In this document: positions 56,281-63,234 of the stretch, piece by piece
Layout of the letters: every line of letters begins with the position of its first letter
Numbering within the stretch: the first letter of the stretch is position 1
Source of the DNA: Mycolicibacterium porcinum
GTDB taxonomy: Bacteria > Actinomycetota > Actinomycetes > Mycobacteriales > Mycobacteriaceae
Length of the DNA stretch: 64,000 nucleotides
Assembly: GCA_002086835.1 (NCBI GenBank)
Contig: MVIG01000013.1
Coordinates: 99,326 to 163,325 of the forward strand
Direction: 5' to 3'
Position numbers and translations under genes: made by a program
Notes under the pieces: model-generated
Database searches by the model: none
The model's input: only the letters and a program-made list of their open reading frames with translations
Told to the model about the DNA's origin: nothing

Positions 56281-58968
56281 TCAACCGGCGAGAGCCTGAC
56301 GCGCATACGCCCGTACGTCGGCGTCACTGTCTTCCAGCGCCACGGTGAGGGCGTCACGCGCGGTCGACTCCGAACTCGCCCACCGGCTCAGGCTCAGCAC
56401 CGCGGCCTTGCGCACGTCGAGATGCTGGTCCTCGAGCGCGCGCGTCAAAGTCGGAACCGCCACTTCCGGAAGGGCCCCGGCCAACGCCCGGGCCGCGCCC
56501 TGGCGGATCTGCCAGGCCGACTCCGTGAACGCCTTCTCGACGCTGACCACGTCGTCGTCGGTGCAGCCGACGGCGCCGAGCGAGGTCAGGGCCGCCGCCC
56601 GCACCAGCGGGTCGGGATCGTCGAGGGCCACGCGTACCGCATCGGCACCGGCGCGCAGGGTCGCGAGCCCACCGACCGCGGCGATCCGCACTTCCCGGTT
56701 CTCGTCGGAGGTGGCGGCCGCGACCCCGGCGTCGTCGTCGACGGACACGAGGGCCCGGACCGCCTCGATCCGTACCCGGTGGTCGGCGTCGGTCGATGCA
56801 GCCCGGTACGCCTGGCCGTCACCGACGCGCCGGGAGCTCAGCAGATACACCGTGGCGGCCCGGACCACCGGGTCCGCGGATTGCAGTCGGTCGGCGAAAG
56901 CCGCCGGGTCCGGAAGGACCTCTACGAGTTCACGTACCGCGTCCGCGGTTTCGCGCCGTACGCCTGCATCGTCGTCGGCCAGTGCGGCCACCAGCGCGGG
57001 TTGGTAACCGTCGGGCAGATGCTCGACGAGCGTGGCGACCGCGGTTCCGCGGACACCGGCATCCGCATCGGCCAGGTAGGCGCTGAGATCCTCCAGCGAG
57101 GGCTCCTCCAAAGCCAGTACCGCGGCGATACGGGGGGACGGGGGCTGCCCGGAGCCGGCGTCGCGGACCCGGGAACGTTCGGCAGCGGGAGCCCGGCCGC
57201 CGTGCAGGTGAGGCTGCTCGACGGAGGTCACCGGGTCCTGCGAAGTCAGGTGGTCCAGCTCGGGCACCGCGACGAAATACGGTGCCACCGGCCGCTTCAC
57301 GAACCTCATCGCGCCGTCGGCGTCCTTGTAGAGGTTGAGGTGGTAGCGCCACTGCGCGTCGTCGCGCTCCGGCAGGTCCGCCCGTTCGTGGTACAGCCCC
57401 CAGCGTGATTCGGTCCGGGTCAGCGAGGAACGGGCGGCCATCTCGGCGCAGTCTCGGATGAAGGACACCTCTGCCGCCCGCATCAACTCGTGCGGTGTGC
57501 GCGCCCCGATGCCCTCGACCTCGGTCACCATCCGCTCGAAGGTCTGCACCGCGATCGACAGCTTGGTGGCGGTTTTCGGCGGTGCCACGTAGTCGTTGAC
57601 GAACCGGCGCAGCTTGAATTCCACCTGCGGCTGCGGCGGACCGTCCGGGTGGCGCAGCGGACGGTAGATGAGCTCGTGCGCGCCGGCCACCTGGTCGGCC
57701 GGAAGCTCGGCCGGTGCCTCGACTTCCGACAGGGTGGAGGCAGCGTGCTCACCGGCGAGATCGCCGTAGACGAAGGCGCCGATCATGTAGTTGTGCGGCA
57801 CACACGCGAGGTCCCCGGCCGCATACAGCCCCGGTACCGTGGTGCGGGCATGCTCGTCCACCCACACCCCGGATGCGGAATGCCCTGAGCACAAACCGAT
57901 CTCGGAGATGTGCATCTCGATATCGTGGGTGCGGTAGTCGTGCCCGCGATTGGCGTGGAACGTTCCCCTGGTGGGCCGTTCCGTGGTGTGCAGGATGTTC
58001 TCCAGCGTGGTCAGCGTTTCATCGGGCAGATGGCTGACCTTGAGGTAGATCGGACCGCGGGCGGATTCGATCTCCTGTTTGACCTCGGCCATCATCTGAC
58101 CGGACCAGTAGTCGGAGTCGACGAACCGCTCCCCCAACGCGTTGACCTGATATCCGCCGAACGGGTTGGCCACATACGCGCACGCCGGGCCGTTGTAGTC
58201 CTTGATCAGCGGATTGACCTGGAAGCACTCGATTCCGGAGAGTTCGGCGCCGGCGTGGTAGGCCATGGCGTAGCCGTCGCCGGCGTTGGTGGGATTCTCA
58301 TAGGTGCCATACAGATAGCCCGAGGCAGGCAACCCCAGGCGCCCGCACGCGCCGGTGGACAGGATCACGGCCTTGGCCCCGACGGTGACGAATTCCCCCG
58401 TGCGGGTGTTGAATGCGGCCGCACCCACCGCCCTGCCCCCTTGGGTCAGCACACGCACCGGCATGAACCGGTTCTCGATGCGGATCTTCTCGCGCATCGA
58501 GCGTTGCCGCAGCACCCGGTACAGCGCCTTCTTGACATCCTTGCCCTCGGGCATCGGCAGCACGTAGGAGCCGGACCGGTGCACGCGCCGCACGGCGTAC
58601 TCGCCGTGCTCGTCTTTCTCGAACTTCACGCCGTACCGCTCCAGCCGCTGCACCATGGCGAATCCACGGGTCGCCGTCTGATAGACGGTGCGTTGGTTGA
58701 CGATTCCGTCGTTGGCCCGGGTGATCTCGGCGACGTAGTCCTCGGGCTCGGCCTTGCCGGGGATGACGGCGTTGTTGACGCCGTCCATACCCATCGCCAG
58801 CGCACCGGAATGCCGCACGTGCGCCTTCTCCAGCAGCAGTACCTGGGCGCCGTTCTCCGCGGCGGTCAACGCCGCCATGGTGCCGGCGGTCCCGCCGCCG
58901 ATCACCAGCACGTCGCAGTCGATCCGGATCGCGTCGTCGATGTCGGGGATCTCGGTCAGTTCGGTCAC
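56281..58968 (-). CDS. FAD-dependent oxidoreductase (fumarate reductase/AprA-like) fused to HEAT repeats
   Basis: An 895-residue two-part protein. Residues 1 to about 590 form an FAD-binding-2 flavoprotein: dinucleotide loop VLVIGGGTAGTMAA, the LLLEKAHVRHSG segment, the covalent/FAD-contact region and GLYAAGDLACVPHNYMIGAF near residue 390, then a helical C-domain like that of succinate dehydrogenase and adenylylsulfate reductase alpha subunits. A short Pro/Arg linker leads to about 278 residues (618-895) of HEAT-type repeats (DADAGVRGTAVATL, DDDAGVRRETADAV, DSDADVRAYARQAL). GTG start overlapping the ABC ATPase stop. The partner is probably the two-cluster ferredoxin in the same operon. The substrate is unknown. 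Confidence 0.9.
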   Translation of the reverse strand: MTELTEIPDIDDAIRIDCDVLVIGGGTAGTMAALTAAENGAQVLLLEKAHVRHSGALAMGMDGVNNAVIPGKAEPEDYVAEITRANDGIVNQRTVYQTATRGFAMVQRLERYGVKFEKDEHGEYAVRRVHRSGSYVLPMPEGKDVKKALYRVLRQRSMREKIRIENRFMPVRVLTQGGRAVGAAAFNTRTGEFVTVGAKAVILSTGACGRLGLPASGYLYGTYENPTNAGDGYAMAYHAGAELSGIECFQVNPLIKDYNGPACAYVANPFGGYQVNALGERFVDSDYWSGQMMAEVKQEIESARGPIYLKVSHLPDETLTTLENILHTTERPTRGTFHANRGHDYRTHDIEMHISEIGLCSGHSASGVWVDEHARTTVPGLYAAGDLACVPHNYMIGAFVYGDLAGEHAASTLSEVEAPAELPADQVAGAHELIYRPLRHPDGPPQPQVEFKLRRFVNDYVAPPKTATKLSIAVQTFERMVTEVEGIGARTPHELMRAAEVSFIRDCAEMAARSSLTRTESRWGLYHERADLPERDDAQWRYHLNLYKDADGAMRFVKRPVAPYFVAVPELDHLTSQDPVTSVEQPHLHGGRAPAAERSRVRDAGSGQPPSPRIAAVLALEEPSLEDLSAYLADADAGVRGTAVATLVEHLPDGYQPALVAALADDDAGVRRETADAVRELVEVLPDPAAFADRLQSADPVVRAATVYLLSSRRVGDGQAYRAASTDADHRVRIEAVRALVSVDDDAGVAAATSDENREVRIAAVGGLATLRAGADAVRVALDDPDPLVRAAALTSLGAVGCTDDDVVSVEKAFTESAWQIRQGAARALAGALPEVAVPTLTRALEDQHLDVRKAAVLSLSRWASSESTARDALTVALEDSDADVRAYARQALAG

Positions 58969-59714
58969 GGTTGCTCCAGGGCGGCAATGATCTCGGCGCG
59001 CAGCGCGGATCGTTCGGGATGGTCGGTTCTGGGCTGGGCCACCTCGATGAGCGCACGTAGCGGCTGTCCGGCGCGACCGAGCACCGCTACGCGGTCACCG
59101 AGGGTGAGTGCTTCGTCGACGTCGTGGGTGACGAACACGACCGTCGTGGGATGGGCCTGCCAGGTGTCGATAAGCAGCCGCTGCATGGCCGCCCGGGTTT
59201 GGGTGTCCAGCGCGGCGAAGGGCTCGTCCATCATCACCGCGCGCGGTGCACCGGCCAGGCCGCGGGCCAGTTGGACGCGCTGCCGCATACCGCCGGACAG
59301 GTTCTTCGGCAGGAAGTCGGCGAACCCGGACAGACCGACCTCATCGATCCAGCGATCGGCCCGCTCCCGTCGCCCCGCCTTCGGTTCGCCCCGGAGCTGA
59401 AGGGCCAGTTCGATATTGGACCGCACCGTGCGCCATGGCAGCAGCGCGCTGTCCTGAAACACCATGCCGCGGTCACGGGATGTGGTGGTGACCGGGTCGC
59501 CGTCGGCCAGCACCCGTCCCCCGTCGGGTCGCAGCAGTCCGGTCAGCGCTCGCAACAACGTGGACTTGCCGCAGCCCGACGGACCGGTGAGCACCAGGAT
59601 CTCGCCGGGCTCGACGGTGAGGCTCAGGTTGTCGATCACCGGATCACCGGTGTAGGACAACCGGATCCGGTCGAGTTCCAGCCGCATGCCGGTGGTAGTG
59701 GTCGAGGCGGTCAT
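58965..59714 (-). CDS. ABC transporter ATP-binding protein (sulfonate/nitrate/taurine type)
   Basis: A 249-residue ATPase of the SsuB/TauB/NrtD group. Walker A GPSGCGKSTLL (about residue 40), Q-loop region MVFQDSALLPWRTV, signature LSGGMRQRVQLARGLA, Walker B AVMMDEPFAALD and switch FVTHDVDEAL. Its ATG overlaps the permease stop and its stop overlaps the flavoprotein start, so translation is coupled through the operon. It powers import of the substrate recognised by the solute-binding lipoprotein. Confidence 0.95.
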   Translation of the reverse strand: MTASTTTTGMRLELDRIRLSYTGDPVIDNLSLTVEPGEILVLTGPSGCGKSTLLRALTGLLRPDGGRVLADGDPVTTTSRDRGMVFQDSALLPWRTVRSNIELALQLRGEPKAGRRERADRWIDEVGLSGFADFLPKNLSGGMRQRVQLARGLAGAPRAVMMDEPFAALDTQTRAAMQRLLIDTWQAHPTTVVFVTHDVDEALTLGDRVAVLGRAGQPLRALIEVAQPRTDHPERSALRAEIIAALEQP

Positions 59715-60571
59715 CTGTTCGCCTCCTCACCGCGCGGCAGCCACCGGGTGGCCCGGCGGCCGATCAGCTCGACCGCCGCGGCGGTCACGAAACCGAGGAC
59801 GCCGATCGTGATGATGCCGACGAAGACGTCGGGATAGTTCAGCACCGTGTACGCCTGCCAGGTGCGGTAACCCACACCGAGACGGCCCGAGATCATCTCG
59901 GCCGAGACCACGCAGATCCAGGCCACTCCCATGCCGACCGAGAGCCCGCCGAACAGCCCGGGCAGGATGCCGGGGAGCACGACCTGGCGCAGCACGTCGA
60001 GGCGACCGCCACCGAGGGTCCGCACCGAGTCCTCCCAGATGGTCGGCAAGGCGCGCACCGCATGCCGAACGCTGACCATGATCGGGAAGTAGGCCGCCAG
60101 GAACGTGATGAACACGATTCCCGCCTCGTCGCTGGGGAACAGCAGGATCGCCACCGGCACCATGGCGATCGCCGGGATCGGCCGGGCCAGCTCGGTGAGC
60201 GGGCCGAAGATGTCGGCGAACAAAGCGGTGCGCCCCAACAGGATTCCGGTGATCACGCCGATGACAGCGGCGATACCGAACCCGGTGAGAATCCGGATCA
60301 GCGACTGACCGAGATCCAGCCAGTACTCCGGTGCGCCCAACCGATTCACCAGGGCGGCGGTGATCTCGGTGACCGTGGGCAGGGTGTCGAACCGCAGGCC
60401 CAGTCGCACGTCGTTCGCGGTCAGCAACTGCCACAGGACGATTGCGCTGACCACCGACGCCAGCCGGACCAGGCGATGCGGCCAGACCGAAGGCACGCGC
60501 CGGACGCGCTCGGTCTCCGGCAAGGCTGAGAGTTCGGTGGCCGTGACCGGGACGGCATCGGTGGTGGTCAT
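59711..60571 (-). CDS. ABC transporter permease (SsuC/TauC type)
   Basis: A 286-residue integral membrane subunit with six predicted helices. The cytoplasmic EAA-like coupling loop reads RTLGGGRLDVLRQVVLPGIL followed by PGLFGGLSVGMGVAWICVVS, characteristic of sulfonate/nitrate/taurine permeases. The ATG at 60571 overlaps the binding-protein stop (ATGA); a longer open frame to 60724 is an Arg-rich shadow of that gene. It forms the channel of the importer. Confidence 0.94.
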   Translation of the reverse strand: MTTTDAVPVTATELSALPETERVRRVPSVWPHRLVRLASVVSAIVLWQLLTANDVRLGLRFDTLPTVTEITAALVNRLGAPEYWLDLGQSLIRILTGFGIAAVIGVITGILLGRTALFADIFGPLTELARPIPAIAMVPVAILLFPSDEAGIVFITFLAAYFPIMVSVRHAVRALPTIWEDSVRTLGGGRLDVLRQVVLPGILPGLFGGLSVGMGVAWICVVSAEMISGRLGVGYRTWQAYTVLNYPDVFVGIITIGVLGFVTAAAVELIGRRATRWLPRGEEANR

Positions 60572-61998
60572 ACCGCACCCGCCAACGCTTGTCGGTAGTC
60601 CACGATCGCGGCGCCGGGGTGAGCGGCGGTGTAGCGTTCGGCGCCGGCCTGGGTGCCGAACGGAAGGTATCCCTCGGCACCGCCTGCGGGCAGGCGCACC
60701 CACACGGACTTGTCGGCGAACCACCGGGTGCCGAACTCGGCGTCGGAGATGTAGGCGGCGCGGATCTTCTTGCCGTCCCCTTCAGCCTGCCGGATCGCCT
60801 TGAGCAGGCAGACCGGCGTGGCGGCCGCGGTGGTGGTGTCCGATCCGTCGATCCAGAGTTCGCCTGCGGTGGCGGGGTTGTCGACGGCGGTCTGGCACAC
60901 CGGGTCGGTGCCGCTCAACGCCGACGGGTTGGCGCTCGAGTTCAGCGCCTTGTCGTAATCCTGGCCACGCGCGGAGTACGCGGCCCGCAGCGGACCGTCC
61001 TGCACGAAACCGGCCACGTCGAGGTCGGCGAAGTTGTCGATCGACTTCAGGTAGGGCACATCGCCTTTGAGCGCGGCGACCAGCGACGGCTTGAGCGTGG
61101 CGTCGAACGAGGTGCCGCCCGGCCCGTTGTAGAGGTAGACGACCTCCTGCGGCAGACCACTGCCCTCGGCCACCACCCGGGCCGCCTCCAACGGCTTGGT
61201 GTTGAGGAATTCGGTGGCATCCAGCTGCGCCTGAAGGAACGCGTCGAGCACCTCCGGATGCTCAGCCGCATAGGCCCTGCGCACCACCACGCCGTGCAAG
61301 GTCGGGTAGTCCAGTTCGGCCCCGTCGTACAACAGCTTGGCCTTGCCCTGATGGACCAGCAGGCCCGGCCAGGCGACGAACTGCGAAAGCGCCTGAACCT
61401 GACCGGATTCCAGTGCGGAAGCACCGACCTGAGGCTGCTGGTTGAGCACCTCGACACCAGTCTTCGCATCGACACCCGCCTTGCCGAGGGCCTGGACCAG
61501 CATGCCGTGGCCGGCCGATCCGACGCTGGCCGAGACCTTCTTGCCGGCCAGATCGTTCAGGGATTTGGCCGGCGAGTCCGGCGCCACCACAACCATGTTC
61601 AGCGCACCCTTCGGGTTGTACCCGGTTACCGACACGATCTCGGTCTTGGCGCGCTCGTTGGCCTGGGTCTTGGATCCGTTGATGAGCATCGGGTAGTCGC
61701 CCATCGAACCGATGTCGATCTTCTCGGCCACCATCTGCGCGGTGATCGGGGCGCCGGTGTCGTAGTCCTGCCAGGTCACGTTGTACTTGGTGCCGGTGCG
61801 GGTGGTGATGTCCGCCAACCGCCGTTCCAGGTATCCCTGGGCACGCAGCAACGTGCCTGCGGTGACGGTGTTGATGGTCTTGGACTGGTAGCCGACGACG
61901 ACGTCGACGGTGTCGGCAGACTTCGTCGCCGAATCGAGAGAGCATCCGGCCGTCGCGAGGGTGAGGCCGACAGTCAGGGCGATCAGGGCTGTTTTCAC
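60568..61998 (-). CDS. ABC solute-binding lipoprotein with a NosL-like C-terminal domain
   Basis: A 476-residue lipoprotein: signal peptide with lipobox TAGC (Cys19), then a SsuA/NrtA-type periplasmic binding fold (VVVGYQSKTINTVTAG, IDIGSMGDYPMLING, LAGKKVSASVGSAGHGML, ending about residue 350). Family members are usually about 320-350 residues; here about 115 more follow. Residues 362-476 include DPVCQTAVDNP, TPVCLLKAI, RAAYISDAEFGTRWFADKSV, LPFGTQAGAERYTAAHPG and match the NosL layout (Cys near the start, a trailing ...PF...A..F...H pattern). NosL proteins bind Cu(I), so a metal or thiol role is possible. GTG start. Confidence 0.88.
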   Translation of the reverse strand: MKTALIALTVGLTLATAGCSLDSATKSADTVDVVVGYQSKTINTVTAGTLLRAQGYLERRLADITTRTGTKYNVTWQDYDTGAPITAQMVAEKIDIGSMGDYPMLINGSKTQANERAKTEIVSVTGYNPKGALNMVVVAPDSPAKSLNDLAGKKVSASVGSAGHGMLVQALGKAGVDAKTGVEVLNQQPQVGASALESGQVQALSQFVAWPGLLVHQGKAKLLYDGAELDYPTLHGVVVRRAYAAEHPEVLDAFLQAQLDATEFLNTKPLEAARVVAEGSGLPQEVVYLYNGPGGTSFDATLKPSLVAALKGDVPYLKSIDNFADLDVAGFVQDGPLRAAYSARGQDYDKALNSSANPSALSGTDPVCQTAVDNPATAGELWIDGSDTTTAAATPVCLLKAIRQAEGDGKKIRAAYISDAEFGTRWFADKSVWVRLPAGGAEGYLPFGTQAGAERYTAAHPGAAIVDYRQALAGAV

Positions 61999-62007
61999 TT
62001 GGATCCT

Positions 62008-62235
62008 CTAGCGGATGAGGTAGGGCATGTTGACGGTGACGGCGCCGGTGGGACAGCGAGCCGCGCACGGGCCGCAGTACCAGCACTCGTCGACGTGCAT
62101 GAAGGCCTTGCCGTTGGCGGGATTGATGGCCAGCGAATCCAGCGGACACACGTCGACGCACAACGTGCAGCCCTCGATACACAGGGACTCGTCGATGGTC
62201 ACCGGGACATCGGCGCGTTGATTGACCAGCGTCAT
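62008..62235 (-). CDS. Two-[4Fe-4S] ferredoxin (AprB-like)
   Basis: A 75-residue ferredoxin with two cluster motifs: Cys19-x3-Cys23-x2-Cys26-x3-Cys30-Pro and Cys51-x2-Cys54-x2-Cys57-x3-Cys61-Pro. The DECWYC stretch with Trp between cluster cysteines recalls the beta subunit of adenylylsulfate reductase, whose Trp mediates electron transfer to the alpha flavoprotein. It overlaps the GntR stop and lies 9 nt before the binding protein, and is the likely electron partner of the flavoprotein at the operon's end. Confidence 0.92.
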   Translation of the reverse strand: MTLVNQRADVPVTIDESLCIEGCTLCVDVCPLDSLAINPANGKAFMHVDECWYCGPCAARCPTGAVTVNMPYLIR

Positions 62236-63035
62236 ACGTCTCTCCTGATGAGGTTGCCGCGCATGGTGATCCGATCACCACGCATTCTGATGTACTCCAG
62301 GTCGACGGGCGTTCCGTCGTCCAGACTCGTGAGCCGCTCGGCCATCAGCAGTGCCGAGCCGGCCGGCACCTGCAGCGTTGCGGCGGTATGGGGGTCGGCC
62401 GAGACGGCCTCCAGCGCAAGGCTCGCCCCGCCCAGGCGTTGCCCGCTGACCCGTTCGATGAGCGCGAAGATGTCGTTGCTCTCCAGCGCGTGCCCGATCA
62501 CCTGCTCGCCGATCTCTGGAGCCAGATAGGTCAGGTCCAGCGACAGCGGTAGGTCGGCGAGATAGCGCAGTCGCTCGATGAACACCACCTGCGCGCCCGG
62601 TTCCAGCGCCAGCTTGCGCGCTACTGCGGGTGGGGCCGAGAGCCGCTGCACAGCACGGACTTCGTTGCGCACGTCGCCGTAATCCTTGAAGGTCTCCTTC
62701 AGCCCCACCAACGCATCGAGCCCGTGGTCGTACTTGCGGGCCGTCACGTGCGTGCCCACCTTGGTACCGCGGTCGATCAGGCCCTCGGCCTTGAGTACGG
62801 CGAGGGCTTCCCGGATGGTGTTGCGGGATACGAAGAACTCGGCGGCCAGCTCCGCCTCGGCGGGCAGGGCGCCGTTGTATGTGCCTTCGTAGATCTGATG
62901 CCGCAGCACATCGGCCACCTGGCGGGCTTGGTCGGCACGCGCACGGCGACTCGGCAGCGATACAGGATGGGCTTCGGGCTCCGGCACGCACTCAAGGTAA
63001 ATGCCGTTCCAGGGCCCTCGCAGTGCGGCGGACAT
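62232..63035 (-). CDS. GntR-family (HutC/UTRA) regulator
   Basis: A 267-residue regulator: N-terminal winged helix (ADVLRHQIYEGTYNGALPAE, then FFVSRNTIREALAVLKAEGL with the SRNTIREAL recognition helix) and a C-terminal UTRA effector-binding domain (VVFIERLRYLADLPLSLDLT, LLMAERLTSLDDGTPVDLEY). It is the first gene of the ferredoxin-ABC-flavoprotein operon and likely regulates it autogenously in response to the transported substrate or a metabolite. The ATG at 63035 was used; a GTG about 16 codons later is also possible. Confidence 0.92.
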   Translation of the reverse strand: MSAALRGPWNGIYLECVPEPEAHPVSLPSRRARADQARQVADVLRHQIYEGTYNGALPAEAELAAEFFVSRNTIREALAVLKAEGLIDRGTKVGTHVTARKYDHGLDALVGLKETFKDYGDVRNEVRAVQRLSAPPAVARKLALEPGAQVVFIERLRYLADLPLSLDLTYLAPEIGEQVIGHALESNDIFALIERVSGQRLGGASLALEAVSADPHTAATLQVPAGSALLMAERLTSLDDGTPVDLEYIRMRGDRITMRGNLIRRDV

Positions 63036-63234
63036 GCCGTCGACGCAGGTTAACCGATTGCGCCGCCGGCCGAGGTGTCGTACCTGGCGAAACCGCCGCG
63101 CCTCCCGGCATTACGCCACCTGGGCCGGATCCAGAATTTACAAATCGCGATGATCGAAACTCGTTGCGCCGGCGCCGAAAAACTTTGGCCACTTTGGTCT
63201 CACCCGTCCCAATCGCGAGATTCTTGTCGGACTA

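Follow-up and report, generated by a model that had tools for sequence, protein, structure and literature searches.

An operon of Mycolicibacterium porcinum that joins a sulfonate-type importer to a flavoprotein-ferredoxin pair of the AprA/PAPS reductase branch

A stretch of 64,000 nucleotides from the genome of Mycolicibacterium porcinum (contig MVIG01000013.1; this whole stretch is hereafter called the window) was found to carry, on its minus strand at 56281-63035, six genes in one tightly coupled operon, which joins a GntR/UTRA regulator and an ATP-binding cassette (ABC) importer to a flavoprotein and a small ferredoxin. Sequence comparison establishes the gene set and its order, the family placement and the residues that were conserved or lost. 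The system is real, widely conserved and mis-named, and is a variant of the AprBA/3′-phosphoadenylylsulfate (PAPS) reductase kind. By sequence, the flavoprotein-ferredoxin pair can be assigned with high confidence to the branch of AprA/AprB and PAPS reductase. The imported substrate is probably a sulfur anion, most likely of the organosulfonate type. The reading of the operon as a whole as a sulfur-scavenging unit, in which an organosulfonate-type importer would serve an AprA/PAPS reductase-related pair that releases sulfite, is tentative and we place it just short of evenly balanced.

The six genes have the overlapping or nearly overlapping ends described in the original prediction. Four junctions are 4-bp overlaps (GntR/ferredoxin, binding protein/permease, permease/ATPase and ATPase/flavoprotein) and the ferredoxin and binding protein genes are separated by a gap of 9 bp. 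Profile searches with Pfam and NCBIfam were used for the domain calls, and Pfam confirmed the predicted content of all six genes. These are, in order along the minus strand, a GntR/UTRA transcriptional regulator of the HutC type (62232-62987; UTRA 2.9e-30, GntR 2.9e-15), a ferredoxin of 75 residues with two [4Fe-4S] clusters and the motif ECWYC, similar to AprB and the PAPS reductase beta subunit (62008-62235; Pfam dicluster models), a substrate-binding lipoprotein, an ABC permease (59711-60571, starting with the ATG at 60571; BPD_transp_1 3.5e-16), an ABC ATPase (58965-59714; ABC_tran 2.5e-34) and the flavoprotein. The lipoprotein consists of an SsuA/TauA-type domain (residues ~27-355, 60934-61920; Pfam NMT1-type, TIGR01728 and PDB matches) and a C-terminal NosL-like domain (residues ~356-476, 60568-60933; a weak Pfam NosL match and homologs). 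In the flavoprotein open reading frame (ORF), Pfam detected FAD_binding_2, Succ_DH_flav_C and HEAT; residues 1-609 including a linker (57142-58968) make up the flavoprotein domain of the AprA/PAPS reductase branch, as judged from PRK13800, chain 8a8o_A, the tree and the residues, and residues ~610-895 (56281-57141; HEAT_2 1e-25) the HEAT-repeat domain. The AlphaFold model of this protein was poor (mean predicted local distance difference test score, pLDDT, 61.5; predicted template modelling score 0.40), with blocks from residue 611 onwards at pLDDT 84-98. The contig (C8) ends where the window ends.

The flavoprotein matched the NCBIfam model PRK13800, named fumarate reductase/succinate dehydrogenase, over residues 6-894 with 1705.7 bits (cut-off 1196), and three forms without HEAT matched PRK08275 with 1024-1123 bits (cut-off 587). 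On the evidence of the tree and the catalytic residues, the database name is misleading. The nearest solved chains were 8a8o_A (PAPS reductase alpha, 1.8e-61), AprA (8.6e-31) and SdhA (9.2e-25), in that order, and BLAST ranked a PAPS reductase-like protein of Ilyobacter first (1.3e-55), followed by AprA (2.3e-42), SdhA (6.1e-24) and an AsfA-like protein (3.8e-16). In a tree of 24 rows the flavoprotein family formed one branch (support 93/98) beside AprA/PAPS reductase (support 100/98), as sister to the three AprA/PAPS reductase rows and not nested among them. The approximately unbiased (AU) test rejected a grouping of the family with SdhA/FrdA/NadB (p 0.0105) as well as with AsfA (p 0.0139). 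The phylogeny, which places the flavoprotein with AprA/PAPS reductase and keeps it apart from fumarate reductase and aspartate oxidase, bears out the AprA/AprB-like pair of the original prediction. Because the tree program warned of long branches, by which AprA may join through attraction, and flagged unusual composition in the AprA/PAPS reductase and AsfA rows, the residues were weighed as well.

The residues were compared in a MAFFT alignment, in which Archaeoglobus fulgidus AprA numbering was obtained by counting; Gln145, named in PMC10322725, agrees with this count. N65, K256-D257, E356, W523 and Y526 were common to the family and AprA/PAPS reductase, against all rows of SdhA, FrdA, NadB and AsfA. 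R331, H338, W288 and C360 were invariant in the family and were not seen in the other aligned rows, and a loop longer than that of AprA/PAPS reductase carries an invariant H130. The E. coli SdhA residues His242, Arg286 and Arg399, which we take to be catalytic positions of succinate dehydrogenase/fumarate reductase, were represented in three family rows by Asn and two gaps. The succinate dehydrogenase/fumarate reductase model TIGR01812 gave 155.6 bits, under its cut-off of 567.3. The tree and the catalytic residues together rule out a fumarate reductase or aspartate oxidase of the ordinary kind. In the ferredoxin, eight Cys and the Trp of the C-W-x-C motif were invariant in all 25 aligned rows, among them the PAPS reductase-type beta subunit of Ilyobacter, and CWxC was present in each of the 75 actinobacterial copies found. 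A Trp between the cluster cysteines is a feature seen in AprB-type subunits; the aprB model TIGR02060 scored 28.7 bits with this ferredoxin, under the cut-off of 135.65.

The importer had been predicted to be of the subtype for sulfonates, nitrate or taurine, and its nearest systems are those for sulfonate and taurine. SsuA/TauA came first in the PDB sequence matches of the binding protein and occupied ranks 1-8 in Foldseek with its predicted model (pLDDT 87.2). The nearest NCBIfam models were SsuA_fam TIGR01728 for the binding protein (128.4 bits, cut-off 163.5), ntrB/SaoP/TauC/SsuC for the permease (all under cut-off) and the taurine ATPase PRK11248 for the ATPase (209 bits, cut-off 357). 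The N-terminal 330 residues of the binding protein thus share fold and sequence type with the SsuA/TauA sulfonate-binding proteins, whereas the score under the SsuA family cut-off and the added NosL-like domain set it apart from them. The predicted relation to NosL is best read as homology: the Pfam NosL cut-off of 24 bits was exceeded in three of six C-terminal domains scanned (loci L010, 25.2; L011, 24.6; L015, 34.8), with the domain of the window itself (16.1 bits, E 0.015) and that of L007 (18.6) below it and L096 without a match. The domain was conserved over 31 aligned rows and had no invariant Cys or His; in 17 rows no invariant Cys, Met or His was present, and D14, W31, D68 and F96 were the only invariant residues. 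The copper ligands of NosL are conserved Cys/Met.

The operon is not peculiar to the window genome, with at least 567 relatives and 54 matching plasmid records (tblastn). A scan of named genomes yielded 80 actinobacterial loci, which span Mycobacterium and close genera, Nocardia, Rhodococcus, Antrihabitans, Aldersonia, Gordonia, Tsukamurella and Streptosporangiales; among the matches listed, the closest relative was Mycolicibacterium peregrinum (95%). All six genes were detected by tblastn in 74 of the 80 loci, which exceeds a chance association and is in agreement with the claim that they are conserved together with the transporter. Five of the six incomplete loci were truncated by a contig end adjoining the operon, and the sixth (L050) lies on the contig of a Mycobacterium metagenome-assembled genome, where the ferredoxin is located directly upstream of the flavoprotein, at ~330 bp, and not at a distance of five genes. 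As ORFs, all six genes were found in 73 of 80 loci, and every gap was below 200 nt in 70 of these. An automated count scored 50 of the 73 as in order, 20 loci having failed solely on the position of the longest-ORF start. A single ORF covered both flavoprotein and HEAT domain in 77 of 79 loci (exceptions L072 and L088). Within Actinomycetota the distribution was patchy (12 of 396 genomes at E ≤1e-80; 3 of 236 genera). Interruptions of 1.5-4.8 kb between otherwise overlapping genes were noticed in L067, L070 and L072, each with a single longer gap (4792, 1489 and 2055 nt, respectively), and in L072 the flavoprotein ORF match was shortened to residues 1-672.

Of the 54 plasmid records 17 were examined, and comprised one unannotated record, one from Tsukamurella with the fused form and 15 that were proteobacterial or cyanobacterial. 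In all 15 of the latter HEAT was encoded by a gene of its own, in combination with a small ferredoxin and a flavoprotein that lacks this domain. The long binding-protein gene (at least 1398 nt) was present in 12 of them (not in L009, L012 and L013). Identity to the window in the non-actinobacterial copies compared by BLAST was 57-63% for the flavoprotein, 55-63% for the ferredoxin and 30-34% for the six binding proteins compared, and seven further binding proteins were 32-35% identical over almost the whole length. The HEAT region of the window matched separate HEAT proteins of L007, L009, L010, L011, L013, L014 and L015, and fusion to the flavoprotein was seen solely in actinobacterial members. 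HEAT, being a separate gene in the Proteobacteria and Cyanobacteria examined, therefore appears as a third component that was fused in the actinobacterial line, a history that argues for its physical cooperation with the flavoprotein. The original prediction correctly recognised the HEAT and NosL-like domains, which it regarded as additions to the standard parts; across phyla both turned out to be regular parts. Adjoining genes in the 15 loci included a GntR regulator in 6, Crp/Fnr in 7, a DUF971 or gamma-butyrobetaine-hydroxylase-like gene in 8 (L010, L011, L013, L113, L115, L117, L118 and L119) and an Mrp/NBP35 ATPase gene in 3 (L009, L015 and L114). DUF971/gamma-butyrobetaine-hydroxylase-like and Mrp/NBP35 proteins are linked to the handling of Fe-S clusters, so such neighbours fit with maturation of the ferredoxin. 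By reading of the annotation, further sulfur genes were located within the fetched stretch in 8 of the 15 loci, which were chosen from the 54 and carry no background rate.

From the homology of the transporter and from these neighbours we infer the class of substrate, and the operon may work as follows. The SsuA/TauA-type ABC importer would take up an organosulfonate-type (R-SO3-) anion; in its binding protein, the NosL-like domain may form a second lobe. The two-cluster ferredoxin would feed electrons one at a time to the flavoprotein by way of the conserved Trp, and the flavoprotein would carry out two-electron flavin chemistry on the anion, ending in sulfite for the sulfite reductase of the cell. 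The HEAT domain may serve the flavoprotein as a platform for docking or assembly, and the GntR/UTRA protein would regulate the operon. Reductive release of sulfite by the pair, taken by itself, we consider evenly balanced. Elsewhere in the window genome, three PF01507 matches (a broad model, which matched 14 of 14 controls), one of them beside a sulfite/nitrite-reductase domain, three sulfite/nitrite reductase domain matches and SsuD-like proteins (best 441.5 bits, under the cut-off of 518.2) were found, and sulfate assimilation thus does not need the operon.

A number of observations weigh against this scheme, in addition to the long branches mentioned above. Asn74, Arg265 and Trp234 of A. 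fulgidus AprA are presumably functional residues, and Arg265 we take to anchor the substrate at the adenylylsulfate (APS)/sulfite site. Arg265 was replaced by Leu254 in 13 of 13 tree rows, a residue invariant in 34 aligned rows, and Trp234 and Gln145 correspond in the family to Tyr223 and Val136. The FAD-sulfite chemistry of APS reductase therefore need not carry over. We know of no case in which an unactivated C-S bond is cleaved reductively. None of the transporter proteins reached the cut-off of an NCBIfam model that names a substrate, and in the fold search bicarbonate/nitrate binding proteins were nearly tied with SsuA/TauA (VIA Z 29.0-29.8). The flanks of the 80 actinobacterial loci were lineage-specific and had no widely shared sulfur family, so that the evidence for a sulfur context comes from other phyla.

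The pair could instead be the electron-transfer module of a flavin-dependent oxygenase that cleaves the imported sulfonate, an explanation we consider unlikely. It has its precedent in reviews, since AsfA/AsfB are described (PMC4267179) as a reductase/ferredoxin for C-S bond oxygenation in arylsulfonate use. Monooxygenases of the luciferase-like (LLM) or NtaA type lie near some copies (L007 and L119; LLM-like in 5 of 80 actinobacterial loci), and the SsuD-like proteins noted above would be at hand in the genome. Against it, the six-gene unit is self-contained across genera and has no oxygenase, the flavoprotein falls outside the AsfA group, and an AsfA/AsfB-like operon exists separately in the genome. 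The latter (C26:136000-150000) has its own ABC importer and consists of a binding protein, a permease, an ATPase, an AsfA-like flavoprotein and an AsfB-like ferredoxin, which, the flavoprotein aside, were recognised by eye; its flavoprotein is 48.7% identical to AsfA of Cupriavidus metallidurans CH34 and 25.9% identical to that of the window.

AsfA/AsfB of CH34 (asfRABC, Rmet_4334/5; PMC2864759), the obvious rival from the literature, which the original prediction did not name, likewise combine a flavoprotein and a two-cluster ferredoxin with a sulfonate-type ABC importer, and by analogy the two pairs likely have a similar job. AsfA groups elsewhere in the tree, however, the window flavoprotein was 26-29% identical to the AsfA rows, and CQTCFMC, without the Trp, is the motif in the AsfB-like ferredoxins from both CH34 and the window genome itself. 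Identity, the tree and coexistence in one genome rule out that the operon is asfRABC, and the separate AsfA/AsfB-like operon makes the window pair a third kind of flavoprotein-ferredoxin pair. The CH34 genes were located on an unannotated record by hand interpolation from six TauD genes, which gave a position of ~923 kb; a flavoprotein and a ferredoxin were found at 928.2-929.9 kb. Their identity is in some doubt, as no LysR gene was seen beside this pair, whereas one accompanies a TcuA/TcuB pair at 793 kb. Both of these CH34 flavoproteins are unlike that of the window (E 7.3e-12 and 1.2e-6).

Another alternative, a reductase or dehydrogenase that, like fumarate reductases, works by hydride transfer at a C=C or C-C bond, here in a carboxylate or sulfonate brought in by the importer, appears quite improbable. 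The NCBIfam name favours it, as do an ECFQ-N-P motif partly like the QFHP motif of SdhA/FrdA and H363, which is common to SdhA/FrdA; the changes at the three SdhA catalytic positions, the rejection of the SdhA/FrdA/NadB grouping and the lack of membrane anchor genes in the six-gene unit speak against it. The same low probability is given to an importer of a sulfur-free or inorganic anion (nitrate, bicarbonate or phosphonate) next to a pair with an unrelated redox role, an explanation with which the near tie in the fold search would agree, while the top rank of SsuA/TauA in both sequence and fold searches and the sulfur genes near several distant copies would not.

The closest solved relative is the PAPS reductase of Methanothermococcus thermolithotrophicus (MtPAPSR, PDB 8a8o; PMC10322725), which resembles dissimilatory APS reductases and also consists of a FAD subunit of the fumarate reductase superfamily and a small ferredoxin with two [4Fe-4S] clusters. 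Both pairs have a Trp in the electron path, and the flavoproteins share N65, K256-D257, H363 and the motif RxExRWxxY. The window flavoprotein differs in the Leu at Arg265, a longer loop after residue 125 and the added HEAT domain, and its pair goes with an ABC importer where that of MtPAPSR goes with ATP sulfurylase/APS kinase. With AprA/AprB, the dissimilatory APS reductase, it shares the tree branch and the C-W-x-C of the ferredoxin; identity to an AprA was 26%, the APS-binding positions were altered and the scores were far under the aprA and aprB cut-offs. The aprA model TIGR02061 gave 132.3 bits (cut-off 641.75) and PRK06854, adenylyl-sulfate reductase alpha, 270.5 bits (cut-off 557), compared with 843.6 bits for the Ilyobacter protein. 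Because of these scores and the Leu at Arg265 the flavoprotein is not filed as an APS/PAPS reductase, standard AprAB is ruled out, and the adenylylsulfate reduction that had been suggested by analogy does not carry over. That the pair serves assimilation as an APS or PAPS reductase like MtPAPSR, as the relation to MtPAPSR alpha and the position of the Ilyobacter pair with cysC, cysD and a GTP-binding protein might suggest, is hardly credible given the invariant Leu254, the model scores, an operon without ATP sulfurylase or APS kinase and the PF01507 matches elsewhere in the genome. In the course of the comparison, a record labelled as a Klebsiella pneumoniae plasmid (NZ_CP061967.1, L107) was seen to carry AprA (952.5 bits against TIGR02061) and, by eye, an ATP-sulfurylase-like ORF; it looks like the sequence of a sulfate reducer, perhaps by contamination or mis-assignment.

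Returning to sulfur scavenging by reductive release of sulfite, the bacterial routes to sulfonates known to us use oxygen, and an enzyme of the AprA branch that works together with an importer of the sulfonate type would, if the reading is true, have a chemistry different from these. In its strongest form the proposal would make the system a third functional class within the AprBA/PAPS reductase family, hidden as fumarate reductase: a flavoprotein-ferredoxin-HEAT enzyme for the O2-free reductive cleavage of an imported organosulfonate (or thiosulfonate/sulfamate) to sulfite, with which aerobic Actinomycetota, Proteobacteria and Cyanobacteria would scavenge sulfur. This is a speculation that we think rather doubtful. 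No description of the operon was found in the open-licence PMC literature, and the common name fumarate reductase/succinate dehydrogenase flavoprotein misleads for the PRK13800-type family. Sulfonates account for 30-70% of soil organic sulfur by X-ray absorption near-edge structure spectroscopy, according to PMC4267179.

The best NCBIfam model for the regulator was PhnF (98.5 bits, under the cut-off of 156.8). Judged by its homologs, one of which (L022) begins with MSSQPEAHP, the gene probably starts at the GTG at 62987 and not at 63035. Just before this GTG, TACCTT (62994-62999, minus strand) is a possible -10 element; the actinobacterial -10 has the form TAnnnT. Further upstream on the same strand, between 63057 and 63120, two direct repeats, GGTGGCGTAAT (63120-63110) and GGCGGCGCAAT (63067-63057), lie 53 bp apart, and with a weaker copy at 63163-63173 there are three at exact 53-bp steps. 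The pair GGTGGCGYAAT/GGCGCAAT at 53-54 bp precedes gntR in 52 of 75 regions, which are partly from close species and hence not independent; 200 shuffles gave 0.005 on average, and neither the opposite strand (0 of 75) nor the control stretches (0 of 74) had it. The double pattern occurred once in the 6.96 Mb genome. GGTGGCGYAAT alone occurred 8 times (2 in the reversed control), and only the gntR site had copies 53 bp away; the motif was not present upstream of the genome's own asf-like operon. No Rfam family fitted the operon leader, where two chance matches stayed under cut-off. The 53-bp spacing amounts to about five helical turns, and the repeats are a likely operator or activator site. 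In the proteobacterial loci L011, L014, L118 and L119, an inverted repeat close to CTTGTnATAACAAG was seen by eye at the start of gntR, unlike the actinobacterial direct repeat; an inverted repeat of that kind is the typical shape of a GntR/UTRA operator.

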